This document shows positions 13,401 to 55,618 of a DNA stretch of 64,000 nucleotides, piece by piece (the stretch's first letter is position 1; every line of letters starts with the position of its first letter). The notes beneath the pieces were generated by a model that saw only the letters and a program-made list of their open reading frames with translations, made no database searches and was not told where the DNA came from. Made by a program: the position numbers and the translations under genes. This DNA is from Acidobacteriota bacterium. GTDB lineage: Bacteria > Acidobacteriota > Thermoanaerobaculia > Multivoradales > J023. The DNA lies in NCBI GenBank assembly GCA_029263395.1, contig JAJCXO010000138.1, forward strand, positions 62,001-126,000. The letters run 5' to 3'.

Positions 13401-13443
13401 TGGGCGAGAGTCGAGTAATCGCCTCGACATTCTGCGGTTTCAT
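1444..13443 (-). CDS. Terminal NRPS: C-A-T-E-C-A-T-C-A-T-TE (three modules, release)
   Basis: This 3999-residue synthetase adds the last three amino acids and releases the chain. C1 (about 10-440; HHILIDGW) has the DCL-type start LSPMQEG, fitting the D-residue supplied by the preceding E domain. A1 is at 470-965, T1 (GGDSI, Ser near 1037) follows, then E (1085-1510; HHLVVDGVSW, Ser-Phe-Asn-Tyr-Leu-Gly motif). C2 (1540-1960; LSPLQQG) is again DCL-type. A2 is at 2010-2540 and T2 near 2617. C3 (2670-3090; LSFAQQR) is LCL-type. A3 is at 3130-3620, T3 near 3689, and the type I TE is at 3745-3990 with GWSFGG and a late GNHY histidine. By my manual alignment the A1 pocket is D-L-Y-D-F-S-L-V-W-K, nearest to cysteine codes (weak). 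A2 and A3 pockets are not recognised. A3 has a deviating core, TSGTSGVPKA. The gene starts 40 nt after the GT-NRPS stop, with an AGAGGA ribosome site. Confidence 0.95.
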   Translation of the reverse strand: MKPQNVEAITRLSPMQEGILFHTLYEKETGLYCLRFASSLRGPLSIEDLHLAWDEVFARHGILRTSFHWEDLNKIVQVVHKQVSLPFEVEDWSHLPDLEQAAAWRDLCRSETHRGFDLSKAPISRFRLIRVADEDYRFLWICHHILIDGWSLAVILAEVFQIYRARTRGQQPALANARPFKDYVGWLQKADMSAAQVFFEKRFGDFTAPTPIGRRGAAAGASEGRSQRRETIGLRATRDLVTLARRQQLTINSLVQTAWALLLSRYSGESDVVFGATVSGRSAALPGIESMVGLFINTLPVRVRVDHSARLLPRLQRVQQHHSELLEFEFTPLHQVQGWSGTGRGTPLFDHILVFENYPIQDAVGREQGDSRDLTVEPEDSLEQINYALALIVQADDEIVVRANYDTADLDATEVERLLKQLRCVLEAMADQPDRLLSSLPWLTGAETHQALYAWNDTRQPLACGTLQSLFRSQAEKTPQAIAVVAGDGRLSYEEIGDEAGRWARRLRHAGVGRGTLVGVFLSRRWEMVPVLLGILEAGGLYVPFEFSFPAKRISWILSSLGIRHMVLDHQALDHLSADADGEGPESIDRFFCVDSERPEQTLPNFAQGRVVWPTVGEVEGPVHLPEVGPEDFAYYIFTSGSTGTPKGVMVRHQPVLNLIHWVNSTFEIGPLDRLLFVTSLCFDLSVYDIFGILAAGGTVRVASGRETRDPERLAQILAEEPVTFWDSAPAALQQLIPFLPRRAALERRQHLRLVFQSGDWVPLTLPEEMRQVFPNARVVALGGATEATVWSNFFPVSEVESRWNSIPYGRPIPNARYHVLDATLQPCGIGISGDLFIGGDCLAAGYAGAPQLTAWKFLPDAFTPTDGARLYRTGDRARFGSDGNIEFLGRLDHQVKVRGFRIELGEIESVLGEHPGVAESVVLAREDEPGRKQLVAYYLAASASEPPANDALRDYLTGLLPSYMVPAAFVMLETFPVTVNGKLDRKALPAPDVDRPAAVEILGPRTDVEEALVDIWQQLLRLEEVGVDENFFELGGDSILSIQLVSKAKKAGLRLNPRQVFEYPTVAELASVATLATTVLENDEPGSEPVGLTPAQHWFFEQDLTAPHHFNQSLFLASKRRLSVAHLIAAFEQLSHHHHALRLRFRRQSGRWQQVHAAPQEASSFTVIDLGLLSPAILKAHIETAANAVQGSLDLARGPLLRGVLFRLPDAADRLLLVCHHLVVDGVSWRILLEDLMLAHSQLESGKTIDLPARTTSFHRWTRLLAETAQSSETAAELAMWTAPERARVPALPRDRTPAADRSSEHSNTFVSVEHVDSSLSANATRALLREVPATYQTQIDDVLLAALGQAIAGWTGQRRCLVALEKHGRNELDDRIDLSRTVGWFTAFCPVLLELPQAADPGEVLLAVKDQLRAMPGDGFGYGLLRYLHPDADVQDSLRDLPQPELSFNYLGQVDLALGRETLFEAAPEFGGHGRAPQQRRRYLIEVDAHIVDGCLRTSWTYCPHLHDRATIEGLAEHTVAALNDLIRHCSSTASRRYSPSDFPLAMISQPRLDTLVRKLAGEDLSAELEALYPLSPLQQGLLFHSVFEPESGVYSIQLRCELDGALDGAVFRRAWTLLFARHQVLRTAFFWEGLDRPLQAVLPQVELPFEQLDWSAAAETQLEALFAARLESDLKQGFELSRAPLARLLLVRVAPDRHRFVLSLHHLLIDGWSLAQLIREAMALYSELAVGRSLDLPAPRPFVDYIAWLEQRDLEAASKFWQGHLEGVTEPGYLTSSAGGGSRSIPSERLPFAVRPEVSSGVATFARSQGLTVNVVLQGVWALLLSRYSGRREALFGITVAGRPPELDGVESMIGLFINTLPLRLEVDPKSVLVPWLLEVQQHQAEVMDFAFLSLTRVQELSSLPPGSELFDNILVFENYPTANASSAGAGSDGPDVTIRSMFSDERSSYAVSLVLGRDLEGSLIFDPARLEPRLAHRLIGHLGSLFEELVNNPSGRLEGLSMLNAAERSQLVAWSRAADAPAVSRSRPSLPDLPLHRLIAGAAERDPEAPSVIFGDLVLPYGELLSRSRRLAARLRSAGTGPETPVGLFLGRSVDMIVGMLAVLEAGGVYVPLDPEYPRQRLLQVLEDLSVWGGGRKPLLLTAETLIERLPEVEVEIILCDGDVDSDSLSEALVQPPSDEVLIDHAAYVIYTSGSTGRPKGVTVSHRNAVRSLSARLQVYSGRPVRFLLVPSFSFDSSIAPMFWTLVEGGCLVLPDEEAAKDGDALIDLIADHEITHWLSVPSLYSVILDFGAEDHARGGAVLESLRTVVVAGEACTRDLVQRHLDALPSADLYNEYGPTEASVWSSFHRFTAVDVAADPEPTEASARSMAGRPVTIGRAVPNWCLFVLDGQGQLMPPGLAGELFIGGEGVARGYLGRPSETASRFVPDSLSIVEGSTADGSVTGGRRLYRTGDRVRYREDGGLEFLGRFDQQVKIRGYRIELAEIEAVLQEQPAVVQAAVLAHDDSSARTRLVAYVVARVLDEQTLRQVLAEQLPNYMVPDRIVLLEALPLLPNGKVDRQRLPRLSAEQRRQPIARATPMIGPAEELVLAVFRPLLEVPELGPDDDFFAFGGHSLLAMRAVSQLGRVFGTKVSLRTLFEAPTARAIAAEVQVANGMSEVTPLIPVDRTGELPLSFAQQRMWFLDRLDPASSAYNVPMAVRLRGGLDPTALQSCLELLTERQEVLRTSFPDASAERVPVQRIASRARLWGRVDLRRLESADRPAAARNLAVVETRAPFDLSHGPLLRMRLVQLSEDDHAIVLTAHHIIFDAWSMAVFIRELSELYVAWTEGRAAELPTLTIQYADYAVWQRQMLKRQGLESQLAYWTERLGGDLPVLSLATDGLPETTDDARGGVVSRRLDGARVSALLELGQGEGSTLFMTFLALFSLLLSRLSNQDDIIVGVPIAGRQHAGTESLIGCFLNTLALRCDLSQAPTFLELLGQVRRRVLEAYEHQDVPFEQIVERVQPRRDLHRSPIFEVLLNVMDNVDRSVADAGRPANFLGLESEALAASDPEAKLLLSLEVIRSGGEIDLQLVFQRQRLAEQRAEELLDQLVGLVTQAVEGPEQKVATYSLLTPSASALVADPELALSEPKFPPVAHAILDRARRSSTAIALRQGELSWNYGTLATHALEVVARLRDQGFVPGDTVVVEGERRAELVAAVLGILAGGGVLLTMDPQLPGRRKRWMLEHTRARHRVVIAGSEVEATWLDGLEVDTLELSGMGEASSEISSVDLPSLEPDAPAYIFFTSGTSGVPKAVVGQQRSLAHFLNWQRDTFEVTDRDRVPLLSGLAFDAVLRDILLPLISGGELHLPVRALAPDDVIPWMRVEGITLLHSVPSVVRSWLAMSQAASGETSIDSLRWTFFSGEPLEADLVAAWRRTAGSTGKVVNFYGPTETTMIRCFHVIEEQPELGVQMAGRALPQSQALVLAPGGQLCGLGEVGEIYLRTPFRTLGYLGQATETRRWFIPNPWRQDPTDLLYRTGDLGRYQLNGGLEILGRLDDQVKIRGVRIEPAEIGEVLARHEGVRQCFVLAKPGVGGLDGTLVGYVARRHDVELEVDDLRRHLGERLPAAMVPGIWQFVEKFELTPSGKIDRQALPVPEQTVDSPKRRVVAPRDDLEMRLVGIWEQVLEVSPIGVTESFFDLGGHSLLGVRLLAQIHSELGRELPMVSLFTAGTVESQAALLGQGEALGSTSLLVPIQPQGEESPIFWIHPGRGGVLCYHELARALGRERPFWALRARGHELGEDPSASVEEMATLYLEEIRTVQNQGPFHLAGWSFGGLVAFEMALRLRGEGEEVAFLGILDTFMPDSYHLQGNSSGPMQTVLDEIERLEGQELMNLVAKAKQQNMLPPEFSEDDAMRLARLTAAHQTAGHHYSPQIYTGPVTFFKAQEPLPEMKDAITGWQGIAPGLKVIEIPGNHYSMIETPRVDRLATELERSLDNLNIVCGEPAEVWS

Positions 13444-13483: not shown

Positions 13484-16400
13484 TCATTGGCTATCCGCCA
13501 ACAAACCCATCAAGTTATCGAGGTCCTCTTGATCCAGGTCTGACTCCGGAAAATCCGAAGGAGAATAGGATCCCGCATCGGGATCCAGACAATGGTGGAT
13601 CAGACTCTCGAGCACCTTCAGATAGTCATCGAGCAAGGTTTCGATGGTCGATCGAAGATGATGACTTTCGCTGTAGCTGCATTCGACGATCAATTGGCCG
13701 CCCTGTACAAAGGCGTCGAATTGCAGCAGATGGCGGCGCGGATTGCGGGGATCGATGGTCGGGCCAACCGCTTCGGGAGCTTCTGTATACGTTCCTTCGC
13801 GTTCGTCCTCCTCGCCGCCTCCCTGGCGTCCGAGGTAGTTGAAGGACACCTCAGGACGCAATTGGGTCGCTAAACGACGCCCGATGCTGCTCTCTGGCTG
13901 AAGAAAACGCAGCAACCCGTGGGGTATACCGCCATCAGGAATCGCGCGCAGCGTCTCTTTCACCGTCTTGATTAACTCACCAGGAGTCGCAGCTTCAGAA
14001 ACTTCCAAATAAACAGGATAGAGCGAAGTGAACCAGCCGATCGTACGGGTCACATCGAGGGTTTCGAACAGCTCTTCGCGGCCATGGCCTTCAAGGTCGA
14101 TCGCCAGGCTCCGAGTTCCGGTCCAGCCAGCAAATGCATCGATCAGAGCACTGAGCAAGAGATCGTTGATCTGGGTCTGATAGGCCGCTGGCGCTTGACG
14201 CAGCAACTGCTCGGTCGGCTCCGCGGCCAAAGCTCGGACCACTTGTTTAGCCGAGCCCTCGTGATTCTCGCCATGATCGAAGTCGACTGGCAACGCCGGC
14301 CATGGCCGCTCGTCCGCAAGCCACACAGCGCCCTGTTGTTCGGTCTCGGGGGACTTGGCCAACTCGGTCAATTGCTCGGCCCAGCTGCGGTAAGAGCTCG
14401 TCTTCGCTGGCAACTCGACGCCACCTCGACGATTCAGAGCGGAGTATGCAGAATGAAAATCTTCTAGCAAGATCGGCCAGGAAATCACATCCATCGCCAA
14501 GTGGTGCGTGACAATCAGTAACCGACTCGTGTTGTCACCGAGTTGGCAAGAGATCGCGCGAAAGATCGGTCCGTGGATAAGGTCGAGGCTCATCTGCGCC
14601 GCGAGTGCCAGGTCTTCCAATGCTTTCGTGTGCTCGGCTGCTGACAGCGCCGTCAGATCGAGATGGGTGTGCGGCGCCACCCCCGGCTCGACGAAACGCT
14701 GCCGCCAGCCGCCGGCTCGCGATTCAAAGCGGATGCGCAAGCAGTCGTGATGACGCTCCAGCCGGCCGATCGCCTGATGCACGGCCGCAGGATCGAGTGC
14801 TTCGCGTACGAGCAGAAAAGCTGCCAGGTTCCAATGTCCCGGATAGGGTAACTGCTGATCGAAGAACCAATGTTGAATCGGTGTCAGTGGAGCGTCTCCT
14901 AGCACCAGCCCTTGCTCTGCATCAACCTGACTGCCAAGGTCGACGACCGACGCCAAATCGGCGATCGTCTGATATTGAAACATCTGTCGCGGGGTCAGTC
15001 GGAGGCCGGCCTGGGTCGCGCGTGCGACGACTTGAATGCTCTGAATGGAATCCCCACCAAATTCGAAGAAGTTATCGTGGATACCTACCCTCTGAACCCC
15101 CAGCACCTGCGACCAGATCTCGGCCAAGGTGGTCTCGATCATCGACCGCGGCGCAACCACCTCACGCGGTAAGCTCTCGAGAGCTGCTTCAGACGAGGGC
15201 AATGCCTTGCGGTCGATCTTGCCATTGGGCGTCAAAGGTAACGTCTCGAGTAGGGTAAAGGTTGCCGGAATCATGTAGTCGCCCAGCACCGCGCTGAGCT
15301 GTGTCCGCAGATGAGGCACCAAGCTTTCCGTCATGGCGCCACGCATCGGATGATTGGCAAGGCGTTCGGGCGACCGCGATCGACGCCTCCACTGCTGGGC
15401 CGGCGGCATGGCTGGTCGCCGAGCCGATGCGTCCAATCGGCGGCAGATCAGATCGAAGTCACCGTCTCCGCGGTCCGACCAGGCAAGGTCGATGCGGTAC
15501 GGTAAGGTCGCCTCGAGTGCCCAGAGATCGGCTGGTTCGACGCCAGAAGAAGTGGCGGCTCGTGCCTTCGTGCTGCTTCGCAGCTGGCCTACATCGAACC
15601 GTTCGCTGTCCTCGCCAGACATACACTCACGCAACCCTCGATCGAAGGCGAGTCTGGCGTTAGGAACGCCAGACACTGCTAGCGTTTCGGGTCGCTCGCG
15701 CTGTAACCGCTCCCTCAGAGATTCGAGATCGAGACCTTCGCGAGTCCAATCGTGCCACGATGTTGGCGCATCCGAGTCGGGTACACTCTCGCCGGGCAGC
15801 CCGACATGCAACACCACGTCATAACGATACCGAGTCAACTCGTTGTGTGCACGGCCTCCCTTGAGTGACAACCCCACCGCACGCACCCGCGGCAAGTCCA
15901 ATGGCAAGGAGGTGAAGAACTCAGGTGCCAACAAGAGTTCCTTGTCGCGCCCCATCTGGAGTCGGATCTTCTGGCGCAGCGACTCAATGGTTTCATCCTC
16001 GTCGGCATGTGCTAGCTGGACTGCCGAATGAAAGGCTTCGAGCAGATCCAGATTCCGTATGCCACCGACGAAAACGAAACCGCCATCTCGGGTGCGCCGG
16101 ACTGCCTCCTTCAATGCCTGCCCCAGGTAATGCACCCCAGGAAAGTACTGAACCACCTCGTTCAGGATCACCAGATCATAGAAAGCGAGTCCAAAATCCA
16201 CTGGATCCGCGGCTTGCCCCTGACGTAGTTGTACTCCATCGAAGTCGTCTGCCAGCTCGGCCAGATGAGCTTCCAGGTCATCTAGAACCCGGCGGGAGAT
16301 ATCGGTGCCATGGTAGGCAGAACAATCCGGCGCCAGCCGAGTGAGCAAGAGGCCGGTGCCGCAACCGATTTCGAGTACCGTCTCGGGTTGCAGATCCCGT

Positions 16401-19400
16401 AGTCGGGAAACTGTGTCTTCGACACATTCTAGAATCTCGTCGTTGGGTAACGGCTCGCCAGTATGGCTGTCGACCCACACGCGCAGGTTGACACCTGGTT
16501 CCAGCGTCTTCTCACGATCACCGTAGGCCTCGTCGAAAACGACCTGCCAGTGATCCACACGATTCCGCTCGAGATGGTCCCTTTCTTCGAGATTCTCTTG
16601 ATCAGGTACAACATAGGCCGCGAGGCGTGCTGGCTGGTCATCAGCTTGCCACGCGATGACCGCCGCCTGCTTGACCGATGGGTCGGCCAGCAGTGCGGTC
16701 TCGATCTCTCCCAACTCGATGCGAAAACCGCGAATCTTGACTTGGTGGTCGACTCGGCCAACAAAATCGAGCACGCCAGAGGTCTTCCAGCGTGCCAAAT
16801 CACCCGTCGCATAGAGGCGTTCCCCGGGTTTGCGGGTGAATGGCGAAGGGACGAAGGTCGAAGCGGTCGCGCGGGCCTTGCCGAGGTAGCCGCGGCCCAC
16901 TCCAGGCCCTGCAACCACGAGCTCACCGACCACTCCAAGCGGCTGTGGTCGAAGGCCACGGCTGGCGACGAATAGCTGAAGGTTGTCCACTGGGCGACCG
17001 ATCGGCACACCGTTCACGACATCGGCCCCTCGGCGCAAGATGTGATGCGTGACATCGTCCGAACATTCAGTCGGGCCATAAGCATTGATCAGGGGGATAT
17101 CCGGATAGTGGTTCAGCCAGCGCTGTACCAGATCCAGTGGCAGAGCTTCACCGGTCGGTATTAGATAACGCAAGCGGTCTAGCCGTGGTCCACCCTCTCG
17201 ACTCTCGATCTCATCGAGCACCACACGCATCAAGGAAGGGACCGTCTCGAGAATCGTCACCCCGTCGCTCACCAATCGTGCGAGCATTTGCGGTGGATCC
17301 TGGACAATTTCGGTTGGAAGGATTTCTATCCGGCCGCCAACCAACAACGCGGCCAAGAACTGCCAAACTGAAATGTCAAAGCAGGGCGAGGCCGTCTGCG
17401 CCACCACATCGGCTGCACTCAGTTGCAGATCGCTAATCTTGGCATCGAGATGGTTGAGCATGCCGCGGTGATGCAACATGGCCCCCTTCGGCACCCCGGT
17501 CGAGCCCGAGGTGTAGATTACGTAAGCCAAACCGTTTGGGTCCGGGACCGGCAGGGCTGATAGCGGCCGCATCGGTCTCGACGGTTCGAGTAGATCCTCC
17601 AAGATCAACCAAGGTTTCTTTGGCCTCCCGTCTCCGACCGCAGACACCACATCCTCAGTGGACGTATCGATTAGCGACGCCAGCTCCTCCCCGACCAGGA
17701 CCAAGGCAGCACCACTCTCGTCGAGAATCTGCTCGCGACGGGCTGTTGGATGCTGCGGGTCGAGCGGCAGGTAGGCAGCTCCAGCGCGTAGGACACCGAG
17801 AATCGCGCAGAGCAGGCTCAGTCCGCGATTGGCGAGGAGCGCCACCAAGGGTTCACCGCCGAGCTCTTGCTCGACCAAAGCCGCGGCCACTCGCCGTGAC
17901 GCCTCGTCGAGCTGCCGAAAACTCATCTTATGGCCCTGGCATATCGCCGCGACGTTCCCTGGGGTTCGTTCGACCTGCTCAGCGAAGAGCCCGACAAAGC
18001 CACCTGGTCTACGTACCGATCGACTGCGGTCGTTGAACTCGCTGAGTATCTGATGCCGCTGTCCGCGGCTCGCCAGTGAAGGCTCTGTGAGCTGCTGATT
18101 CGGATGGCTCAAGAAGCCTTCTAGTAGCCGCTGATACTGTCGCATCCAACGATCGACAGTAGTGGCGTCGAAAAGGTCAGTATCGAACTCTACGATGCCA
18201 CCAAGCTGCTCCGCTGCATCGACCAACATCACCACGAGATCAAACTTGGCGGCGCCGGACTCGACTTCGAACGGTGCCAGGCGCAAGCCAGGCAGTTTCA
18301 ACTCACCCTGAGGTGTATTCTGCAAGGCGAACATCGTTTGAAAGAGCGGTGTTCGGTCGAGATCTCGCTCGAGTTCCATCGCTTCAACCACACGGGCAAA
18401 CGGTACGCTCTGATGAGCGAAGGCATCGATCACCCGAGTCCGGACCCGCTGCAGGAGGCTCGCAAAGGTCGGATCGCCCGAAAGATCTGTCCGCACCGCC
18501 AACTGATTGACAAAAAAGCCGATCAGTGGCTCGATCTCGGAACGTGTTCGGTTGGCTACATCGGTGCCGATCACGATGTCTCGTTGGCCGGTAAGCCTGC
18601 CCAACAACGCGTTGAAGGCAGCGAGGAGCACCATGAAACCGGTTGAATCGGTTGCCCGAGCATAGTGTCGAACACGCTGCGTAAGCGAATCCGGCCAGGT
18701 CAACGACCGCCGGGCACCACGGCCACTCGGCATAGCTGGACGTGGCCGATCCGTCGGCAGTGCAAGGCGAGCCGGGGCACCCTGCAGCTGCTGACGCCAA
18801 TGCTCGACCTGGGACTCGAAGTCAGGTCCCGACAATTCTTTGCGCTGCCAAGCAGCGAAGTCGGCATATTGGATTGCCAACGCTGGTAGAGGATTCGGTC
18901 GCCCGTTGCTGTAGGCCGCATATAGCGCCGCCAACTCGCTGACAAAAATACCGAGAGACCAGCCATCGGCAGCGATGTGGTGGACCACGACGCCCAGAAC
19001 ACAGTCTTCTTCGGCCAGCTGCAGTAGGTGAAACCTTACCGGCCGCTCACAACTCAAATCGAAGGGCTGCTGCAAATCCTCGGTCAGGAGGCGACGCACA
19101 GCCTGCAGGCGTGCCTCGCCCACCAGGTTGCCAACTGGCTCCGCTCGTAACGCCAAATCGATCGGCGGCTGAATCTGCTGAACAGCCACTCCGTCCTCGA
19201 CAGAAAAGACGGTACGCAGCACGGCATGCCGTTCGAGAATCGTGGAGAGGCTGCGATTCAAGGCTCCGGTATCCAAGTCACCGAGGAGTCGCACCGCACC
19301 GAACTCATTGTAGGCCGAGCTCTCAGGCTCGAGTTGCGTCAGGAACCAGAGCCGTTCCTGCTCGAACGAAAGTCGGGCCGGCTGCATTTGGTCGCGTCGT

Positions 19401-20737
19401 GGAATATCAACCACCGGTGACGCCAGCTGTCCGTTTGTGTTCTGTTTCCGGGCTTGGAGCGCCCGCAACGCCAGTAGCGTTCGTTGCTGCTTGGTCAGTC
19501 GACTCGCTTTCGACTTGCGCTCTTCGCGGACCTCCTTCTCGCTGGAAAAAAGGTGCTGCCGCGGTTTCAGGTTTCGAAGGAAACTCTCGAATTGATCGAT
19601 CCCCAAGCCACTGACGAAACGCTCGGCGGCGGCGCGCGACCGATCAGATATTTCGGCATACCTTCGGCGATCGCTCAACAGCGAGGTCAAAGCCTCCCGC
19701 CAGGGTCCGATATCTTGATGCGGAACGATGGCGATCGGATTGCTCCGGTCGTCGAACCGATCCTCGTAGGACTGAATCGGGCGAACCGGCAGAATGTAGT
19801 CGACCCCCAGCTTAGCCTCCGCCAGCCCCTCGACGTCGCTGGCGATCACCGGCAAACCCCGCAACATCGCTTCGATCGGTAGCAGCGGGAAAGCTTCCGA
19901 CCACAGCGACGGCATCACCAATATTCGGGTCAGACGGAAAATATCATCGATGTCGTCGGCCGGCGGCAAGAGTGTGACGTTAGGCAATTTCTCGAGTCGC
20001 GCGCGCTCGACATCGGTTGTCCCCCAGGTCGGCACAGCAGCAAAAGCGACGTCCGGGAACTCAGCAGCGAGGCTCTCGAAAATCGGGCCGCCCTTGTAAT
20101 CGCAAGGGTTCACGAGGGTCACATAACCATCGTCGAAATCGCTCAGGCGTTGCCACGGCCCCTCCCCATAGATAGGGAATCCGATTACGACCGACTCACA
20201 GTCCCCCCACTGGCGCAGGTACTTCTCGACGTAGCGACTGACAGTGATGATGCCAGCAGCTTGTTGGACCAGCTTGGTCTTGTTTTGACTAGGCGAGAAA
20301 CTGCGGGGACCGAATGGCAAATGTAATGGCGTGTGCACGATGTAAACGACGCGCGCTGGACAAACCTCCAGAGCCACCTCGAGCATCTCTTGCCCAGGGT
20401 CCTCGGAGGAGACCATGACCCAAGTAGGATCGAATTGCTGCAGCAACTTTTCGAGCCATTCCCTGGTTAGCTTCCGGTCGTGGACAGCATGAACCTCCAC
20501 CTTCTCAGAGGTGAACACATCGACACCCGGATGAGCGACATCGACGCTCAGCGATCGTTCGGCCAAGGCTTGGTAGAATTCTTCTCGGTTCCCGGGGCCG
20601 TGACTACCGGTCGTAGGTACCAGGGCCTTGCATTCGTGACCACAAGCGGCCAATCCCTCGATCAAGGCGCGATTGGCTTTGTTGGCCCCGCCGAGGGTCG
20701 GAACATAGAGCATGTTCTGGATGAGGACGATCTTCAT
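13484..20737 (-). CDS. Glycosyltransferase-NRPS fusion: GT4-C-A-MT-T-E
   Basis: Residues 1-390 form a GT4-type glycosyltransferase: an N-terminal Rossmann start with a GG-N-A-N-R pattern, and a C-terminal donor site with EAMLRGLPVIAS. A helical linker (about 395-450, TKQQRTLLALRALQ) looks like the N-terminal docking helix of an ordinary NRPS. Then come C (455-890; LSFEQER, LCL-type; HHIAADGW), A (920-1840; TSGSTGVPKG near 1077; A10 NGKIDRKAL), a SAM methyltransferase inserted between A8 and A10 (about 1385-1800; LEIGCGTG near 1457), T (GGDSI, Ser near 1896) and E (1950-2370; HHLAMDVISW). It should add one residue, probably N-methylate it (the family's usual role) and epimerise it. The pocket reads D-I-W-E-I-T-A-D-D-K, which I cannot assign. 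The protein ends just after the YSPSDFP linker that normally joins E to the next C domain. A strong AGGAG lies 10 nt before the ATG. Confidence 0.93.
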   Translation of the reverse strand: MKIVLIQNMLYVPTLGGANKANRALIEGLAACGHECKALVPTTGSHGPGNREEFYQALAERSLSVDVAHPGVDVFTSEKVEVHAVHDRKLTREWLEKLLQQFDPTWVMVSSEDPGQEMLEVALEVCPARVVYIVHTPLHLPFGPRSFSPSQNKTKLVQQAAGIITVSRYVEKYLRQWGDCESVVIGFPIYGEGPWQRLSDFDDGYVTLVNPCDYKGGPIFESLAAEFPDVAFAAVPTWGTTDVERARLEKLPNVTLLPPADDIDDIFRLTRILVMPSLWSEAFPLLPIEAMLRGLPVIASDVEGLAEAKLGVDYILPVRPIQSYEDRFDDRSNPIAIVPHQDIGPWREALTSLLSDRRRYAEISDRSRAAAERFVSGLGIDQFESFLRNLKPRQHLFSSEKEVREERKSKASRLTKQQRTLLALRALQARKQNTNGQLASPVVDIPRRDQMQPARLSFEQERLWFLTQLEPESSAYNEFGAVRLLGDLDTGALNRSLSTILERHAVLRTVFSVEDGVAVQQIQPPIDLALRAEPVGNLVGEARLQAVRRLLTEDLQQPFDLSCERPVRFHLLQLAEEDCVLGVVVHHIAADGWSLGIFVSELAALYAAYSNGRPNPLPALAIQYADFAAWQRKELSGPDFESQVEHWRQQLQGAPARLALPTDRPRPAMPSGRGARRSLTWPDSLTQRVRHYARATDSTGFMVLLAAFNALLGRLTGQRDIVIGTDVANRTRSEIEPLIGFFVNQLAVRTDLSGDPTFASLLQRVRTRVIDAFAHQSVPFARVVEAMELERDLDRTPLFQTMFALQNTPQGELKLPGLRLAPFEVESGAAKFDLVVMLVDAAEQLGGIVEFDTDLFDATTVDRWMRQYQRLLEGFLSHPNQQLTEPSLASRGQRHQILSEFNDRSRSVRRPGGFVGLFAEQVERTPGNVAAICQGHKMSFRQLDEASRRVAAALVEQELGGEPLVALLANRGLSLLCAILGVLRAGAAYLPLDPQHPTARREQILDESGAALVLVGEELASLIDTSTEDVVSAVGDGRPKKPWLILEDLLEPSRPMRPLSALPVPDPNGLAYVIYTSGSTGVPKGAMLHHRGMLNHLDAKISDLQLSAADVVAQTASPCFDISVWQFLAALLVGGRIEILPTEIVQDPPQMLARLVSDGVTILETVPSLMRVVLDEIESREGGPRLDRLRYLIPTGEALPLDLVQRWLNHYPDIPLINAYGPTECSDDVTHHILRRGADVVNGVPIGRPVDNLQLFVASRGLRPQPLGVVGELVVAGPGVGRGYLGKARATASTFVPSPFTRKPGERLYATGDLARWKTSGVLDFVGRVDHQVKIRGFRIELGEIETALLADPSVKQAAVIAWQADDQPARLAAYVVPDQENLEERDHLERNRVDHWQVVFDEAYGDREKTLEPGVNLRVWVDSHTGEPLPNDEILECVEDTVSRLRDLQPETVLEIGCGTGLLLTRLAPDCSAYHGTDISRRVLDDLEAHLAELADDFDGVQLRQGQAADPVDFGLAFYDLVILNEVVQYFPGVHYLGQALKEAVRRTRDGGFVFVGGIRNLDLLEAFHSAVQLAHADEDETIESLRQKIRLQMGRDKELLLAPEFFTSLPLDLPRVRAVGLSLKGGRAHNELTRYRYDVVLHVGLPGESVPDSDAPTSWHDWTREGLDLESLRERLQRERPETLAVSGVPNARLAFDRGLRECMSGEDSERFDVGQLRSSTKARAATSSGVEPADLWALEATLPYRIDLAWSDRGDGDFDLICRRLDASARRPAMPPAQQWRRRSRSPERLANHPMRGAMTESLVPHLRTQLSAVLGDYMIPATFTLLETLPLTPNGKIDRKALPSSEAALESLPREVVAPRSMIETTLAEIWSQVLGVQRVGIHDNFFEFGGDSIQSIQVVARATQAGLRLTPRQMFQYQTIADLASVVDLGSQVDAEQGLVLGDAPLTPIQHWFFDQQLPYPGHWNLAAFLLVREALDPAAVHQAIGRLERHHDCLRIRFESRAGGWRQRFVEPGVAPHTHLDLTALSAAEHTKALEDLALAAQMSLDLIHGPIFRAISCQLGDNTSRLLIVTHHLAMDVISWPILLEDFHSAYSALNRRGGVELPAKTSSYRSWAEQLTELAKSPETEQQGAVWLADERPWPALPVDFDHGENHEGSAKQVVRALAAEPTEQLLRQAPAAYQTQINDLLLSALIDAFAGWTGTRSLAIDLEGHGREELFETLDVTRTIGWFTSLYPVYLEVSEAATPGELIKTVKETLRAIPDGGIPHGLLRFLQPESSIGRRLATQLRPEVSFNYLGRQGGGEEDEREGTYTEAPEAVGPTIDPRNPRRHLLQFDAFVQGGQLIVECSYSESHHLRSTIETLLDDYLKVLESLIHHCLDPDAGSYSPSDFPESDLDQEDLDNLMGLLADSQ

Positions 20738-21081
20738 GGCACCCTCACTCCTTTCCTCGCTTGGCGAGTGTCTCTTGACTGGGTTTCAAGCTCTTCAAGG
20801 CCAGCAATGCCCGCAGAGCTCAAGGAAAATCTCAGCCTGTGCCCGGATGGCCGACTACGGCCCGCTGGCCAGAGCGCTTCTTGAGGCCAGGTTTTGTATA
20901 CGCTGTATCGTCGCGACCAAGAGTCTTCGAACACCTGTACCACTTCTGACATCCCCTGCACCAATTCCACGAAGACCGGTAGCCCTTTGTAGGCCAGCCC
21001 TTCAATCAACGTTCGGTTGGCTCTGTTGGAACCGCCGAGGGTCGGCAGATAAACCATTTTTTGCACCAGCAGGAATTTCAC
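20734..21081 (-). pseudogene. Truncated glycosyltransferase remnant (duplicate N-terminus)
   Basis: A 115-codon frame. Its first 30 or so residues (for example YLPTLGGSNRANRTLIEGLA) closely match the first residues of the GT domain that opens the next gene (YVPTLGGANKANRALIEGLA). After that the two diverge completely, and the remaining 80 residues resemble nothing I know. A real GT4 enzyme needs about 350-400 residues, so this cannot be active. It keeps ATGA overlaps of 4 nt with both neighbours, so it still passes ribosomes along. Most likely it is the decayed first copy of a once separate or duplicated glycosyltransferase gene. A small leader or chaperone-like peptide is possible but unsupported. 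Confidence 0.65.
20738..20752 (-). promoter_or_regulatory. Strong ribosome binding site of the GT-NRPS gene
   Basis: On the minus strand an AGGAG at 20748-20752, followed by GAGGG at 20742-20746, precedes the ATG at 20737. This site lies inside the end of the short upstream frame. The start at the glycosyltransferase methionine is therefore well supported, and the GT domain is genuinely translated as part of the synthetase. Confidence 0.7.
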
Positions 21082-24000
21082 GGGACTCCCTCAGCACCAG
21101 AGCCGACGGGTAGTCGGCGCGCCTCCGTCCGTGTTTCTCTTTCGATCATCTCCAAAGCGTCTTGTTCGGAAAGGTGTTCGATACTTTCGAGGTCATCGAG
21201 ATCGGCCTCCCCAATCAGCTCCAACTCGACCCGTTCCGCTAATGTAGCGACCGTCGGCACCTCGAAAATTGCGGACAACGGCAGCTCGATACCAAAGGCG
21301 TCGCGCAACCGGGAGAGCAAAATTGTCCCCATCAATGAATGACCACCCAGTTGAAAGAAATGATCTTGTGATCCGATCCGGTCAACTTCCAAAATTTCCT
21401 GCCAGATCTCAGCCACCATTTCTTCGAACGGGGTTGCGGGCTCAACGTATCGAGCCTCCTTTGGCCGATGCTGGCGGCGGCGCGCTCGAACCTGGGCCAG
21501 GATCAGGTGTGCTGCCCCGAGCTCGGTTGCGATTCTCTGGATTTGCTCGCTGGGGGCAACCGTCGGTGCCGATACCGGCGTAACAACTTCAGAGGATGCG
21601 GACTCGTCGTCGGCAGCACCGACCCTGAGACACACTGCGAGTGCCGCCTCCACCGGAACCGCAAACCGCTCGACGTCGCCGGTAGCGTCGCGCCAGGATT
21701 CAGCAACCGAACTCAAGAAAGCCCTGGCGGGCTGGTTGCGTTCACTCCGTCGATATGGAATCAGCAGACGCTCCAGCCCTCGCTCACGCGCCAGGCTCCC
21801 GAGCTCAACCATCATGCGATGCTCGATTCCTCGACCCAGAACCCGACAACTGAGCAACCAGGTATCGATCGACAGATCACTAGCCTCGACACTGAAGAGC
21901 AACACTCCGACGAGACCATAGTCGCCGAACCGATCGCTCACCTTGACGATCCTCGCTTCACCCCGCCGCAGAAAGGCTTCGACCTCCGACACATCTCGGC
22001 GACGAGTCGTCAGATTGAATTGATTTGTCCGCTGGGTCAGCTGAGCCAGCCGCTCCATATCCTCGGAGAGTGGTACGGCTATCTCTATCTCGAGCTCCAA
22101 ACCATCAATGAACTCGAGGAAGCCCGGTGCCTCTCGCTGAAACTGCTGGCGTTCGACGTTCTGTTGATAAAGTGCCGTCCGGCGCCGATCCTCGTCGGTG
22201 ACGTGGAGACGATCAAAGGCCCATACATTCTCCAGAAAGCCAGGTATATCGTTCGGATCCGACGGCAACCTCAACGTCAGCACCTGCGGACAATGACTGG
22301 TAATCTCGGCACATTCGACCGGGTTGTCATCGATCATGATGAAGCTGTCAAGTCCGAGATCGAGCTCCTCAGCCAACCGTTTCAGCTGGGTCGACTTGGG
22401 ATCCCAGTTGATTTGTCGCGACACCACATGCTTGTCCTTGAGTGGCATGTCACCACGCTCGGCGAAAACCGCCGCAACATCTTCAGGGCTGTTCTTGCTC
22501 GCCAGGCAAATCAGCATCCCAGCATCGTGCTGCCCGACCAAGAACTCTTGCAATCGCCGATATGGCGCGTCGATCGAAATCCCTGATGGGCCATCTTCGG
22601 CACAGACTCCTCGCCACAAGGTCTGGTCGCAGTCGACGGCGATGACTTTGCGTGGCACGTTGCGTAACACCACAAGGCGCCGCGCCACTGCCGTGCCAAG
22701 CGCCGCGAAGAGCTCCGGCGTGTAGGGTACGTGCCCCACTTCATCAGCATGGGGATCGTGGGGTGCTGCGACTGGATAGAGTGCTCGGAATTCGGATTCT
22801 GCCATGAAAACCACACCTGACAGTTCGCGCAGTCGACTAGCCAGTTGCTCTTCGAGCCCAGTCAAGAGCTTGGCATGTCCAGGGCGGCTCACGAACTCCG
22901 GCGAGGCGGGGCAACTGACCACCAGATAGGGTACGGAGCTGGCCGCCGACACTTGCTCGAAACCAGCCACCAGATCATCGAGAGCACGCCACAAGAACCC
23001 CTTCAGGTCCGAATCGCTGCCGCTTTCCGAGCGGTACCGCTGCCAATCTTCAAAACGAAACAGAACGACGTTGACCCCATAGGCATTGGAGCGCATGAGC
23101 CCGGTCGGATCGAGCAACTGTTGAAAGACTTGATTGTATGGAGCAAATTCGATGCGACTCGGCAGATCGAGAAAATCCGTCCAGAATTCCAGCGAGTCTT
23201 CGATCGGCTCGCCAGTAAACGTTGCGGCAACCGCAATCAATTGTTCTCGATCGCGTTGGTGCGCCGCTGCTACACGGTGCGGGAGATCTCCCACGAGCTC
23301 CAACTCATCCAGCCTAACCTGGGGAGCCACACACACCTGCTCGAGCCAAGCAACATAGGTTTCGACGATCCAGCCCGTCGTATCATCGTCGAACAACGCC
23401 GGATCGAAGAAAAACGAGCCTTCGATCGCCGTTTCGGACTCGGTCAGATAAACCAATAACTCGAATTGACCGGCACCTTGCTCGACCTCCAAGATCTCGA
23501 CTTCGATCCCCTTGATGTCGCCATCAGCAGACGGAACGTTTTCAAGCACAAAGAAGACCTGAACCGGAGAGCCAAGAGTTGGATCCCGTTCGACGTCAAA
23601 CGCCTGAAGGATTCTCTCGAACGGCAGCTGGGCATTCTCATAACTTTCGAGGCTATTTTGTCGCACACGGCCCAGAACTTCGCCAAACGTTGGATTCCCC
23701 GAGAGATCGACCCGTAGCAAGACATCGTTGGCAAAATAACCCAGCATATCTTGCAGAACCGCCTTGTCGCGATTGGCGACCGGCGAACCGATCACGACGT
23801 CCAACTGACCCGATAGGCGACTCAGCAAGGTATCGAATATCGCGATCAGTACCATCGAAGTACTCGCTTCGTGTTGGCGCGCCAACCCGCGGACCGACTC
23901 GCGAACACCCTGCGGGAGTCGTATCTTGCACTCTTTCAGCACGCGCCCGGAAACATCACGTCGGGTCGAGCGCGGCCGATCCGACGGCAGATTGAGGCGT

Positions 24001-24752
24001 TTCGGGGCATCTCTCAACGCTTCTTTCCAGAAAGCAAATTGGCGTTCGAGCACGGTGCTCTCCCGCTGGTGTTGCTCCTGCTGCCAAATGGCGAAATCAA
24101 TGAACTGAAGACTCAACTCCGGCAGCGCCTGCTGATATCCCTCGACCCTCGCCTGATAGGTCCCCAGGACCTCATTCAAGAAAAGAGCGACGGACCAGCG
24201 ATCGCTAATAATGTGATGAAGATTCAGACAGACCACATGCTCGACTTCGGAAAGCTTCAAAAGCACGACACGCACGAGTAAATCCGTCGACAAATCGAAC
24301 GAATGCCGGGCCTCGCGCTGGACCCGGCGCGACATCTCCGTTCGGCGTTCCTGCACAGCAATCTGGCTGAGGTCCTCTACCGGCACAGTGAGCTGCACTC
24401 GCGGCCCGATCGCCTGCCGGCCTTCACCGTCGACCTCGGAAAAGCGCACACGCAGGATTTCATGCCGGTTGACCACCTCGGAAAAGCTCTGTTCGAGTAT
24501 CTCGACTCGTAGCGGTCCCCTGAGGCGAACCGCAACCGGTACATTGAAGTCTGGAGTGCCAGGATTCAATCGGTCGAGAAACCAAAAACGTTGCTGAGCA
24601 ACGGTCAATGGGAAGCGCTCAGGATCACGACTCTGAGGGACCAAACCTGAGCTCCGTTTAGAGTCCTTCTGTCGCTTTGCGGCGAGTCGGCGCTGCAATA
24701 GCTCTAGCTGCTCGGGTGAGAGCCCAGCCAGCTCATCGCGCAAACTAGTCAT
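21078..24752 (-). CDS. C-FkbH-T module: condensation plus glyceryl-loading synthetase
   Basis: The 1224-residue protein starts with a helical docking-like segment (LSPEQLELLQRRLAAKR). An LCL-type C domain follows (45-480; LTVAQQR, HHIISDRW). An FkbH domain of the HAD superfamily occupies about 500-1100, with DCDQTLWRG near 708, SKNS, IDDNPVE and the family hallmark LTQRTNQFNLTTRR. A carrier domain has GGHSL with Ser near 1137. FkbH proteins take 1,3-bisphosphoglycerate, dephosphorylate it and load D-glyceryl onto a carrier (known from BryA and OzmB). There is no A domain, so glycerate is the likely unit. A C domain acting on it could form an ester through a glycerate hydroxyl, making a depsipeptide link (inference). 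It overlaps the lipoprotein gene by 8 nt and the next frame by 4 nt. Confidence 0.93.
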   Translation of the reverse strand: MTSLRDELAGLSPEQLELLQRRLAAKRQKDSKRSSGLVPQSRDPERFPLTVAQQRFWFLDRLNPGTPDFNVPVAVRLRGPLRVEILEQSFSEVVNRHEILRVRFSEVDGEGRQAIGPRVQLTVPVEDLSQIAVQERRTEMSRRVQREARHSFDLSTDLLVRVVLLKLSEVEHVVCLNLHHIISDRWSVALFLNEVLGTYQARVEGYQQALPELSLQFIDFAIWQQEQHQRESTVLERQFAFWKEALRDAPKRLNLPSDRPRSTRRDVSGRVLKECKIRLPQGVRESVRGLARQHEASTSMVLIAIFDTLLSRLSGQLDVVIGSPVANRDKAVLQDMLGYFANDVLLRVDLSGNPTFGEVLGRVRQNSLESYENAQLPFERILQAFDVERDPTLGSPVQVFFVLENVPSADGDIKGIEVEILEVEQGAGQFELLVYLTESETAIEGSFFFDPALFDDDTTGWIVETYVAWLEQVCVAPQVRLDELELVGDLPHRVAAAHQRDREQLIAVAATFTGEPIEDSLEFWTDFLDLPSRIEFAPYNQVFQQLLDPTGLMRSNAYGVNVVLFRFEDWQRYRSESGSDSDLKGFLWRALDDLVAGFEQVSAASSVPYLVVSCPASPEFVSRPGHAKLLTGLEEQLASRLRELSGVVFMAESEFRALYPVAAPHDPHADEVGHVPYTPELFAALGTAVARRLVVLRNVPRKVIAVDCDQTLWRGVCAEDGPSGISIDAPYRRLQEFLVGQHDAGMLICLASKNSPEDVAAVFAERGDMPLKDKHVVSRQINWDPKSTQLKRLAEELDLGLDSFIMIDDNPVECAEITSHCPQVLTLRLPSDPNDIPGFLENVWAFDRLHVTDEDRRRTALYQQNVERQQFQREAPGFLEFIDGLELEIEIAVPLSEDMERLAQLTQRTNQFNLTTRRRDVSEVEAFLRRGEARIVKVSDRFGDYGLVGVLLFSVEASDLSIDTWLLSCRVLGRGIEHRMMVELGSLARERGLERLLIPYRRSERNQPARAFLSSVAESWRDATGDVERFAVPVEAALAVCLRVGAADDESASSEVVTPVSAPTVAPSEQIQRIATELGAAHLILAQVRARRRQHRPKEARYVEPATPFEEMVAEIWQEILEVDRIGSQDHFFQLGGHSLMGTILLSRLRDAFGIELPLSAIFEVPTVATLAERVELELIGEADLDDLESIEHLSEQDALEMIERETRTEARRLPVGSGAEGVP

Positions 24753-25731
24753 GGTCGTCCCCTTCCATTGAGGTCGTGAGTTCGCTTAGAAGAGGTTCCA
24801 GAGCTACCCGATAGATCGCGGCTCCGAGTTCCTCATGGTTAGAGCTGTAGTAAAGAAACTGCCCGTCGGGTGCAACGGACGGACAAATCTCGAAACCAGC
24901 TCGATTGACAGTTGGCCCCAAAGTGCGGCCACGGGACCATTGGCCCTCGCGTTGGAACGACACGTAGAGATCGTCCTGACCGTATGAGCCTGGTCCTCCA
25001 TGGGAAGTGAAAATGAGATAACTCTGATCTGGTGCGATCCACGCGTGCCACTCACCCGCGCCAAAATTGACTTCTGCGTCGAGCGGTTCAGGCTCACCCC
25101 AGACGCCATCGGCAACTTCAGGTGCCCGATAGATCGAGCCCCCTTCCTCACCAGACGCCACATCGCGATTCGAGCCGAAATAGAGTGTTCCATCCGCCGC
25201 GATGGTCGGAAATGCTTCGTATCGTGATGAATTCACCGGTTGACCGAGCGAGCGGGGCTCCGACCATTCCGGCCCCTGCCTGAGCTCGACCATCCAAATG
25301 TCCGACCCTCCAGCTTCTCCACCTGGCACGAGAGGTCGGTTGGAGGTAAAGAACAACCGCTGACCGTCTGGCGAAACGAATGGATCATGATCAGCATAAG
25401 AGCCCGAAAAGCCAGCCAATTGGGGAGTTGCCCAGTCTCCGCCTGCTTCGCGACTCGACCAGTAGATTCCCTCGCTGGCCCCATCTTTGTTGGTTTTCAT
25501 GAAATAGGCTGAGTCACCGTCGGGAGTAAAGGTGATACCCACAAGACGGTCTGACGAAAGTCTTGTCGAGAAGACCTCTCGGGACATCGATCCCGCTGTT
25601 GTCGACGATTCCTCCCCTGCGGCCAAGTCCTCCACCGGAGGCTTGGAACAGCCAGCCAGAAACATCAATACCAACGTTCCGAAAGCGAGTTTCGAGATGT
25701 TCTGTGCCAAGACTTTCTCCGCAAATTCCAT
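24745..25731 (-). CDS. PD40 beta-propeller lipoprotein
   Basis: A 328-residue protein with a hydrophobic segment ending in the lipobox LAGC (Cys near residue 28), so it is probably lipidated and faces the periplasm or outer membrane. After a short linker it has about five PD40/TolB-type blades, marked by repeated S-P-D-G or A-P-D-G turns followed by an aromatic strand and T/S-S-N (for example HDPFVSPDGQRLFFTSNRP). Its catalytic role, if any, is unknown; such propellers usually bind partners or carbohydrate. Its place inside a synthetase operon is odd: it starts 28 nt after the PKS stop and overlaps the C-FkbH-T gene by 8 nt. It could bind or help export the product, or be a passenger. Confidence 0.85.
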   Translation of the reverse strand: MEFAEKVLAQNISKLAFGTLVLMFLAGCSKPPVEDLAAGEESSTTAGSMSREVFSTRLSSDRLVGITFTPDGDSAYFMKTNKDGASEGIYWSSREAGGDWATPQLAGFSGSYADHDPFVSPDGQRLFFTSNRPLVPGGEAGGSDIWMVELRQGPEWSEPRSLGQPVNSSRYEAFPTIAADGTLYFGSNRDVASGEEGGSIYRAPEVADGVWGEPEPLDAEVNFGAGEWHAWIAPDQSYLIFTSHGGPGSYGQDDLYVSFQREGQWSRGRTLGPTVNRAGFEICPSVAPDGQFLYYSSNHEELGAAIYRVALEPLLSELTTSMEGDDHD

Positions 25732-25759: not shown

Positions 25760-28700
25760 TTATTCGTCCAACAGAAGTTGTTTCACCGCCTCCGGCGACA
25801 AGCTCCGAAGCTCCTCGAGAGCCTGACTGAGTTCAACTTCATCCAAGTTGTCACTCTGGAGTTCGACAACAGTCAATGCCAACTCGCTGACCGTGCTGGA
25901 TTCGAAAATGACGCGCAACGACAGCTTCACGTCAAAACGTTCTTCCATGAGTCCAACAAGACGCGTCGCAAGGAGGGAATCACCCCCGAGATCGAAAAAG
26001 CTGTCGTGAATGCCTACCCGATCGAGACTCAATAGATCGCAGAACACGGTTGCGATCCTTTCCTCGGTCGTATTCCGAGGCGCGACAAACTCTGTAGCGA
26101 GCTCTGGTCGAGGGTGGTTCTTGGCCGAAGCCGAAGAGGCCAGGTCGAGCCGCGCGGCGAGGTGATCTTCGGGCACTGCTGCCGACATCGCCCGCCAGCG
26201 CCCAGGGATCGGTAGTGTGGAAACCAGCACCTGGGGAGGCAAGTCAATGGGCCCGAGTAAACGGTGGAAGACCTCGGCTCCCTCGGCTGGGCGAATGCCG
26301 ATGAGCTGCTCTGAGCCCGACGGTGCCTCAACACCGGAACTCTCGGCCAACGCATTCTCGCCGACGGCTGACGGGTCGATCCGGCGCATGGTGAAGGCCT
26401 CGATCTCGGCCACAACCTCGCCAGCATCGTCCAACAACACGATGTCACCCGCCAATGTCTCGGCATCTTCCTCCACACGTTCGAATCTCAGGTAGCTGTG
26501 GACGACTGCCGGTAAAGGCCGCCAGTTGCGCAGGCGCCCATACACGAACGGCAAGAAGTTTCGGCCTCCGGCTAGCCGTTGGAGAACGCCGGTGGCGTTG
26601 TCGAGCAGAGCAGGATGGAGCCCGTAGGCGTCGGAATCGTCCGCGAACTGCGGATCGAGCTCGAGAGTCAGCAACCCTTCTTTCTCACCGCTATGTAGTT
26701 CCATCCGTGGATGTTGCCAGCGGGGTCCAAAGGTGAAGGAAGCCGACTCATCGCTGCTGGCATCGTCAGCAGCCAACTCGGCGCCAATTTCCGAGAATGC
26801 ACCTAGGCGTTCGCGAATCGCCGCCAAGTCAAACCCTTGCGGAGTCGCCTCTTTCGGGGTCGACCGCACTTGTCCTTCGACATGGCCGACCCAACTCCCG
26901 CCGCTCTCCGGCCGACTCTCTAAGACGAAGTCGAAAACTTCTCCGTCCTGTCGTTGCTGGAATTCGAGGTGCACCTCAACGGAAGTCCCTGCAGCGACCA
27001 AGAGCGGCGACTTGAAAACCACTTGTTCGAGGTCGATTGGATCGGAGCCGAAATGGTCTTCCCAAGCAGCACGTACAAACTCGAGATGGCCAGTACCCGG
27101 CATCACCCCGAATTCACCCAAACGATGTTCCTCGACCAACCAATGGCCTTCCGCCGAAAGCTGCGTCCGGTAGGCGATCCGCTCGCCAGAATCATAAACA
27201 CAGGCGTCGAGTAAGGGATGAGCTGGGCGACTCAAGATCTCTTCGTCGTAACCCCTGGTCAGGCCGTAGCCCGCCGCCACCGCAGCCGCCTGCCCCACCT
27301 CGAGCCACGCATCCCAACCGACTGAAATCGTCGGAATGGTCCCCTCGGTTACTAGAGCCTGGGAGAAAGCGTCGAGATAGGCATTGGCGGCAGTATGGTC
27401 GACGAGGCCGAAGGCACCGGTCGCTGCCGTCAGTGACGAGCACAGCATGAGAAAGTCAGGCTGGTCTTTGCCGAAGACCTCATACAGGCAGCGAGTGCCC
27501 TCGGTCTTGGGTGCCAGGACGGTGGCCAACTGCTCGCGGGTCTTGACCTCCATCAAACCCCCTGGGGAGATACCCGCAGCGTGAACCAAGCCATCGATTG
27601 GTCCGAAACGCTCATGGACGAGCTTCCGTACCTGTCGTACAGCGTCGAGATTACTGACGTCGGCCGACACCACCAGGACTTCGGCGCCTAGTTGTTCTAG
27701 CGCCTCAACCTGACGAATCTTACGACTCACCGGGTCGGACGGTGGATGCTCTTCGAGCCAACTCTGCCGACTTCTCTCAACAGGGAATTCCGAGCGCCCC
27801 ACTAAAACCAGTCGAGCGCCAACGTTTCTCGCCAGGTCCTCGGCGATCACCAGCCCCAAGCCACCCAGGCCACCGGTGATCAAGTAGACCCCATGCTCCC
27901 GAATTCGACTCGTGTCGGCCTCGGTGGCCGGCAATTCGACCGGCTCATAGTCCCGGGTCCAACAGGTCGCTCCGCGAAATGCGATCGGAGACTCCTGATC
28001 GCCTTCGGCTGACAATTCCAGGTAGAGCCGATCGACCAGCCGCTTCTCCAACGCGCTGTCTGACGATGGCAAAGCGATCTCGATGCTACGACAAGAGAGG
28101 TCGGGATACTCGAATGGGGCGACCGAGCAAGGACCCGAGATCAGTGCTCGCTCAGGATCGACCTCGTCATTACCGGTAATCTGATGTAAGTGGCTGGAGA
28201 GCACCACCAAGCCTCGAGTTTCTGGCCAGGTGTTGAGTGCCTGAACCAAGAAGACCAAGCTGTGTAGACCGCGGTCGAGCATCATGCCTGGTTCAGAACA
28301 TTCACCGACCGTCCAGCCGTGGACGATTCGCTTCACATTCAGGCCATCTGCCCGCAAGTCCTGCAGCAGCTCGACATAGCCTTCCCGCGTAGCAGGGTCG
28401 AGTATGTAGGCGCCTCGATAAACTTTCTCGAACCGGTCCCCGGCAGCGACCAGCACCACCGAATGCCCCGCTTCTTCGAGGCGCTTTGCGAGTTGCAGCC
28501 CTATACCTTGAGGGTCGATGAACAGCAGCCAAGGTTCCTTATCCCGCGGCTCCTCGTCACTGAGTGACTTCTCGACCGCCAGTTCTCGACGCGTCTGCAT
28601 ACCGAGTTCGGGCTTCCAGGAAGGCAAATAGAACCAACGACCGATGTCGTCGACCTTGCGCGGGTTTTCTCCTTCACCAGCAACCGGTGTGCTGGTTGCC

Positions 28701-55609: not shown

Positions 55610-55618
55610 GTGTGGAGT

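Follow-up and report, generated by a model that had tools for sequence, protein, structure and literature searches.

The DNA analysed here, hereafter the window, is a stretch of 64,000 nucleotides from an Acidobacteriota genome (assembly GCA_029263395.1, contig JAJCXO010000138.1, positions 62,001 to 126,000 of the forward strand), and the element in question is a glycosyltransferase (GT) domain of the GT4 family that is fused to the N-terminus of a non-ribosomal peptide synthetase (NRPS). The initial annotation, made from the letters alone, had described about 390 residues of GT4 sequence in frame before a helix and a C-A-MT-T-E module, with a ribosome site at the GT methionine. Scans with Pfam and NCBIfam bear out this description: a single open reading frame of 2417 residues (20737..13484, minus strand) encodes GT4 (residues 1-392), a docking-like helix, and condensation (C), adenylation (A), methyltransferase (MT), thiolation (T, carrier) and epimerization (E) domains (Table 1), and the sequence GGAG, read directly in the window, stands 10 bases 5' of the GT ATG. 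Within the GT domain, Glyco_transf_4 matches residues 16-178 (33.4 bits against a cut-off of 28.5) and Glyco_trans_1_4 residues 243-308 (44 bits). The specificity code of the A domain is, by alignment, DIWEITADD(K), and no substrate was matched to it. The window genome has 47 matches to Pfam PF00534 and a single full-length member of the GT4 subfamily described below. A GT domain is therefore found in one open frame with the core domains of an NRPS, an arrangement that is kept in relatives and is that of a tailoring domain in cis.

Table 1. Positions in the window of the domains of the fused protein and of the neighbouring parts of the assembly line
Feature	Position	Strand	Basis or remark
Start of the line: fatty acyl-AMP ligase-like domain, T, two C-A-T modules	44341..53058	-	three AMP-binding domains, DIP2-like AMP domain, two C, three T
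Polyketide synthase (PKS) module KS-AT-KR-DH-ACP, upstream, same direction	25760..31432	-	Pfam
C-FkbH-T protein, directly upstream of the GT gene, glycerate-loading module	21078..24752	-	Pfam, TIGR01686
Remnant of a second GT gene, begins VKFLLVQKMVYLPTLGGSNRANRTLIEGLA	20968..21081	-	GTG start overlaps the stop of the FkbH gene as GTGA
GT4 glycosyltransferase domain, predicted GT-B fold	19562..20737	-	residues 1-392; Pfam GT4 models, AlphaFold, structure matches, EX7E pair
Docking-like helix LTKQQRTLLALRALQARKQ	19442..19498	-	residues 414-432
Condensation domain	18044..19375	-	Pfam PF00668, residues 455-898
Adenylation domain	16568..17986	-	Pfam AMP-binding 918-1285, TIGR01733
Methyltransferase domain core	16070..16375	-	Pfam Methyltransf_12 and Methyltransf_11, residues 1455-1556
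Thiolation (carrier) domain	14948..15130	-	Pfam PF00550 PP-binding, residues 1870-1930
Epimerization domain, up to the stop codon	13484..14935	-	second Condensation-family stretch; TIGR01720 at 2253-2409
Downstream NRPS: four C, three A, three T, thioesterase	1444..13443	-	Pfam

The protein encoded next to the fusion places an FkbH domain (TIGR01686 at residues 701-1017, 282.8 bits against a cut-off of 146.65) beside a T domain (PP-binding 1113-1175) and behind a C domain (Condensation 47-489), which is the arrangement of a glycerate-loading module. This is the only FkbH above the cut-off in the window genome, and its translation contains DCDQT, which we take to be a HAD motif of the DXDXT type. 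Between the two genes, about 37 residues of a second GT survive, matching the family profile at positions 2-38 and no further (28 bits, E = 5.7e-10), with 66% identity to the intact GT over 32 residues. Because this remnant lies between the genes and overlaps the FkbH stop, the locus probably once had the order C-FkbH-T; GT; GT-C-A-MT-T-E (semicolons separate proteins). Paenibacillus curdlanolyticus YK9 still has such an order in whole, namely A-C-FkbH-T; GT; GT-C-A-T-C-A-T-E.

AlphaFold, supplied with 91 sequences, predicts the GT domain (residues 1-392) as one complete GT-B fold (pLDDT 96.4, pTM 0.93), and VIA-align ranks sucrose-phosphate synthase (6kih, Z 31.6), MshA (3c4q, 30.7) and BshA (3mbo, 29.9) closest to the model, with root-mean-square deviations of 2.5-2.8 over 328-337 residues, as would befit a GT4-related fold of two Rossmann domains. 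Thirteen columns are invariant in the 91 copies (G17, F142, G143, Y173, N210, K215, G216, F232, W238, E281, P296, G304 and W346), and the window GT retains all of them together with E289. The EX7E pair of the donor domain, a GT4 motif, is thus present as E281 (E in 91 of 91) and E289 (E in 84, D in 6, Q in 1); loss of donor-site residues, which the initial annotation had named as grounds for abandoning its reading, is not what we found. None of six members scanned reached the cut-off of any NCBIfam model, and we therefore treat the group, as defined by its sequences, as an unnamed GT4 subfamily. Membership in the BshA or MshA families was considered and rejected, the window GT scoring 31.4 against a cut-off of 273.7 (TIGR03999) and 27.4 against 462.5 (TIGR03449). 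It shares the GT-B fold and profile and structure matches with BshA, MshA and sucrose-phosphate synthase but differs from them in falling below the NCBIfam cut-offs and in its own invariants F142-G143, Y173, N210, W238 and W346; BshA, to judge from PDB titles, handles a small hydroxy acid, malate. A defence-type GT4 was also looked for, with no PADLOC match at E 0.01.

A profile search of genome contigs confirmed 86 places, 80 of which were kept and, with the addition of genome G051, gave the 81 loci analysed; in these, hidden Markov models built from the window domains, together with a thioesterase (TE) model from locus L023 (TEb), identified 126 GT copies. The initial annotation had proposed looking for other GT4-C-A fusions, and GT4-C fusions indeed turned up in 8 copies from 7 genomes of three phyla, counting the window: Blastocatellia AA13, a Thermoanaerobaculum metagenome-assembled genome (MAG), P. 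curdlanolyticus, a Chloroflexota MAG (L019 and L163), G051 from the phylum of the window, and G577 from the order of a Solibacteraceae MAG. By Pfam, GT and C lie within one scanned protein in L016, L017 and L019, and C was found in the part after the GT in L018 and L097; L121 and L163 are further fusions beyond the 81 loci. In 48 of 52 fused copies, a fixed motif picks out a helix-like linker of the form LSPEKRALLALRLRKK that separates the GT from the domain after it, with similar stretches recognizable by eye in L018, L033 and L078 and none in the part inspected of L079. The helix precedes TE as well as C, and it resembles the N-termini of the window NRPS proteins 21078-24752 and 32421-37775, and we read it as a putative docking helix for the upstream T protein.

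Counting a GT as directly following a T domain when both lie on the same strand within 1.5 kb, 47 of the 126 copies follow a T domain and 45 another GT, 11 are found where a contig or locus ends, and the other 23 are directly preceded by neither. Downstream, 46 copies are fused to TEb, one to the general TE model and five to C, with one TE in another frame; the thioesterase after the GT in L023 was confirmed by Pfam. The preceding T belongs to FkbH-T in 43 of the 47 cases and to an A-T module in the other four, whose codes are DVWHISLID (L016), DVWHISLVD (L017 and L022) and DFWSIGMVH (L079), that is, Ser codes in three and a Thr-type code in one; published Ser codes include DVWHLSLVDK and DVWHLSLIDK, and published Thr-type codes DFWNIGMVHK and DFWSVGMVHK. 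Because of these 43 FkbH-T units and four Ser- or Thr-type codes, the predicted load of the carrier before the GT in this set is glycerate, serine or a threonine-type residue. Ser- or Thr-type codes occur in 4/4 A domains before a GT versus 2/20 other A domains of the same loci and the window (Fisher p = 0.0014); these 24 domains were counted by hand, with seven domains resembling fatty acyl-AMP ligases (FAAL) and one truncated domain dropped and the split A domain of 32421-37775 counted once. Furthermore, in 46 of the 47 T-preceded copies the GT, fused or not, has the T domain on one side and the next GT, C or TE on the other.

A small operon, FkbH-T; GT; GT-TE, is present in 37 of the 81 loci. 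At 33 of these, the stretch covered yielded neither a C nor an A domain, so that glycerate is the only acyl unit predicted there. The remaining four (L023, L033, L036 and L045) have a C domain before FkbH, with an A domain in three; L033 reads FAAL-T-C-FkbH-T, and L023 and L045 are similar by codes and profiles. A further gene family recurs at 11 of 50 paired or GT-TE loci, and its one scanned member, in L049, is a phosphopantetheinyl transferase by Pfam. We also sampled 200 genomes from the order of the Solibacteraceae MAG G402, requiring E 1e-40 for the GT and E 1e-30 for FkbH, with an FkbH query taken from the operon and matches above 290 bits regarded as operon-type. The GT was found in 84 genomes, about two fifths of the sample, and FkbH in 120, at more than 290 bits in 83; 79 of these 83 genomes have the GT, the other four falling among the 116 genomes with no GT match. 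In 69 of the 83 GT genomes with a listed best place, FkbH lies at most 5 kb upstream on the same contig and strand (one of these, in G581, is a 215-bit fragment), whereas it is on another contig in ten and absent above 290 bits in four.

In a tree of all 126 GT copies built by a quick method, the window GT is nearest to that of L019 (54% identity over 321 columns), a placement without strong support. The two GTs of a pair are mutual nearest neighbours in Paenibacillus (95) and in Caldilineales (99), but in the acidobacterial operon the first and the second belong to different clades; paired GTs thus probably arose more than once. An RpoB tree places the window genome within Acidobacteriota beside the Thermoanaerobaculum MAG (90% over 238 residues); in the same tree L090 (VFZH01000013.1), from a MAG labelled Acidimicrobiia, falls with Acidobacteriota, and its label looks wrong. 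A single clade (SH-aLRT 99) unites 19 solo GTs. Many of these have ATP-grasp, WD40 and methyltransferase genes as recurrent neighbours, as judged by clustering and ten Pfam scans; a shared neighbourhood of ATP-grasp, WD40/NHL propellers, a methyltransferase and two families for which Pfam matched nothing in the member scanned was seen in Planctomycetota (L041, L046, L047, L054, L072, L095) and Alphaproteobacteria (L080, L082, L086, L089, L093, L094), and L034 has an acyl-AMP-ligase-like gene on the opposite strand. The solo GTs possibly serve another, carrier-free pathway.

Taking these lines of evidence into account, we regard O-glycosylation of glycerate on the carrier, before the next condensation, as the most likely mechanism and as a likely one in its own right. 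Under this model, the GT4 domain would act in line as a tailoring domain of the assembly line. Glycerate would be loaded by FkbH onto the T domain of the preceding protein, where the C domain of C-FkbH-T would probably form an ester between one glycerate hydroxyl and the growing lipopeptide-polyketide. Next, with the glyceryl unit still bound to T as a thioester, the GT, which begins the following protein and adjoins the docking-like helix, would transfer a sugar from a nucleoside diphosphate (NDP) sugar to the remaining hydroxyl, and the next C domain would take up the glycosylated unit. Because the free first GT of the window is now only a remnant, one sugar is predicted at this locus; relatives with two GTs may add two. 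The initial annotation had suggested, as a plausible target of the GT, the glycerate that the preceding module holds on its carrier, and the FkbH-T units before 43 of 47 T-preceded GTs, together with the 33 operon loci lacking detectable C and A domains, argue in favour of this suggestion. The acceptor can probably also be a hydroxy-amino acid, and a GT4 subfamily is repeatedly paired with carrier-bound hydroxy acids, the fusion being one version of this pairing.

Loci beyond the initial sample allow a further look at the acceptor. This set comprised 22 loci. Twenty are genome regions from two samplings, one of the family to which P. curdlanolyticus belongs (matches in 15 of 295 genomes) and one of the Chloroflexota MAG's phylum (matches in 6 of 251, G983 and G1015 being left out), exclusive of L018 and L019, which are already among the 81; the other two are plasmids, of Streptomyces sp. 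NBC_00209 and of a Niveispirillum, out of three plasmid records found (a second Streptomyces plasmid, H2, was left out). A T domain directly precedes the GT in 15 of the 22, in four as FkbH-T; GT; C-A-T-TE, all from Paenibacillaceae, and in eleven as A-T; GT; C-A-T-TE. As for the sugar donor, the NBC_00209 plasmid NZ_CP108122.1 has a separate ACP, the GT4, a second GT (with sub-threshold matches to macrolide-type models), an FkbH protein (above the cut-off, at 268.7 bits) and a TE on the other strand, along with annotated thymidylyltransferase, nucleotide-sugar dehydrogenase and epimerase genes, and in L155, the sole scanned Paenibacillaceae locus with FkbH, GHMP kinase and nucleotidyltransferase genes follow; both sets of neighbours are plausible NDP-sugar donor genes. 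Separately, we observed that C-A-T-TE proteins adjoining the GT in L151 (10890-16448) and L155 (10656-16229) carry a C-terminal MFS transporter, and that in L122 (G587:C217:5001-17000) the family GT is the C-terminal part of a 943-residue protein (3529-6357) whose first ~500 residues match none of the NRPS-type profiles used.

Several observations weigh against on-carrier glycosylation of glycerate, or at least against its generality. A rule restricting the acceptor to serine, threonine or glycerate failed out of sample, where the A-T module before the GT has the code DAST(I/V)AAVC in 11 of the 15 T-preceded loci. We take this code to be Tyr-type, although the string is absent from the one paper checked; if it denotes Phe, these 11 loci would have no side-chain hydroxyl. 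A wider rule, by which a hydroxyl-bearing unit precedes the GT, accordingly depends out of sample on this presumed Tyr code. No T domain was detected before the GT in 6 of the 22 loci (L144, L145, L146, L159, L163 and L165), nor upstream of the GT-C proteins L097 and L163 within ~19 and ~10 kb, respectively. In addition, no C, T or FkbH domain was detected around the 19 solo GTs, with flanks of 1.3-10 kb, and the GT family as a whole is therefore not tied to carriers. The co-occurrence of GT and FkbH in the order-wide sample (Fisher p = 4e-44) ignores shared descent and was obtained with an FkbH query from the operon itself, and a phylum-wide search yielded few genomes with the GT, at least 3 of 396, with four candidates scored per genome among the matches listed.

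Among other explanations, the one that fares best, and still an improbable one, is that the GT acts on the released peptide and that the fusion does no more than secure its proper level and location. Many members of the GT family are free proteins, and AerI of the aeruginosin clusters, which like the window GT is a glycosyltransferase encoded in an NRPS cluster, differs from it in being a separate gene product rather than a module domain, postulated to glycosylate the Choi residue. However, the GT gene comes after T and ahead of the next GT, C or TE in 46 of 47 T-preceded copies, and the helix that follows the GT is the same before C as before TE, as expected for an intermediate that is handled before C or TE. 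We give still less credence to the possibility that the GT acts within its own module, on the amino acid there, instead of on glycerate supplied by the upstream protein. One chain of the window carries GT, C, A, MT and T, and the code DIWEITADD could mean a hydroxylated residue, but in 33 of 81 loci FkbH-T; GT; GT-TE comes with no detected C or A domain, and among the GT-C loci the downstream A codes vary, whereas the T just upstream, where found and readable, is that of FkbH-T or of a module with a Ser-, Thr- or presumed Tyr-type code. It is very unlikely that the GT binds without transfer, as a structural or vestigial domain in a locus already losing GT genes: the neighbouring copy has decayed to ~37 residues, but the fused one keeps all 13 invariant residues and E289 in a complete predicted fold (pLDDT 96). 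Finally, a frameshift or misassembly joining two genes, which the initial annotation had raised as a potential refutation and which the draft state of the window genome (291 contigs) might favour, is already refuted by the relatives, because GT-helix-C recurs in six other genomes, including P. curdlanolyticus YK9 on a 496 kb contig.

The proposed glycosylation of carrier-bound glycerate can be placed within the line of the window, which reads FAAL-T-C-A-T-C-A-T; C-A-T-C-A-T; C-A(MOX)-FkbM-T; FkbM; KS-AT-KR-DH-ACP and, after the PKS, C-FkbH-T; GT-C-A-MT-T-E and the terminal NRPS. The predicted product is a lipopeptide-polyketide with one internal glycosylated glycerate. Other features of the line were observed alongside. 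In 32421-37775 (minus strand), a luciferase-like monooxygenase (MOX) is inserted in the A domain, whose split parts give the partial, Gly-like codes DIL- and -QMGMIW, and an FkbM methyltransferase domain follows, with another FkbM gene at 31429-32424. A published account (PMC12283262) gives DILQLGMIWK as the code of Gly domains with MOX, and an alpha-hydroxylated, O-methylated glycine is a possible product of this module. At the front of the line, 53033-55624 (minus strand) encodes a lantibiotic-dehydratase-like protein of 863 residues with no NCBIfam match; a protein of this kind from another NRPS-PKS cluster is described as making a peptide bond (PEARL, PMC11212132). A PD40 beta-propeller gene (24745-25731, minus strand) lies between the PKS and C-FkbH-T genes. 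The rare code DLFNNALTY is common to the first A domain of 37772-44344 and the A domain of L019, the locus of the nearest relative of the window GT, and the two clusters may share further features.

PtmJ of the pactamycin pathway is, we presume, a separate protein. It glycosylates an ACP-bound polyketide, a case of carrier-bound glycosylation in trans (Eida et al. 2019, cited in PMC7435583). Compared by description only, it resembles the window GT in acting on a carrier-bound intermediate, but it is called an N-glycosyltransferase and has a polyketide acceptor, whereas the window GT is a GT4 domain in cis within an NRPS with a predicted O-acceptor. In the suomilide and dysinosin (methyl, sulfo groups) and vioprolide (fatty acyl ester) systems, FkbH likewise loads glycerate on a T domain and adjoining domains tailor or esterify it; the accounts available in part name methyltransferase, sulfotransferase or ester-forming C domains in this role and no glycosyltransferase. 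Among the matches listed in open-access literature, preprints excluded and sources seen in part, we found no GT-NRPS fusion, which is weak evidence because of that coverage, and no carrier-made glycosylated glycerates of acidobacteria; the portions seen of a review of odd NRPS domains (PMC8949500) mention no GT domain. Two leads, a cyclic glucan synthetase (PMC6679464) and lincosamide LmbT (PMC4351081), proved, from what was seen of each paper, not to be such fusions.

Taken together, these results translate into a joint reading that we hold with somewhat less assurance than the mechanism at the window itself. On balance, a dedicated GT4 subfamily appears to make on-carrier glycosylation a programmed step, both in cis in NRPSs (GT-C-A...) and in the minimal line FkbH-T; GT; GT-TE, whose products, free of amino acids, would be glycosylated glycerates or, where FAAL-C precedes it, acylated glycosyl-glycerate glycolipids. 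The placement of a GT4 gene between FkbH-T and C or TE is a sequence signature that genome miners can use now. If the reading is true, glycosylation would be a module-level step of NRPSs, like methylation, and not left to free enzymes after release, and the engineering of glycopeptides and glycolipids would gain a new part in a GT domain that recognizes a hydroxy acid on T. It would also predict a class of acidobacterial compounds, the carrier-made glycosylated glycerates.

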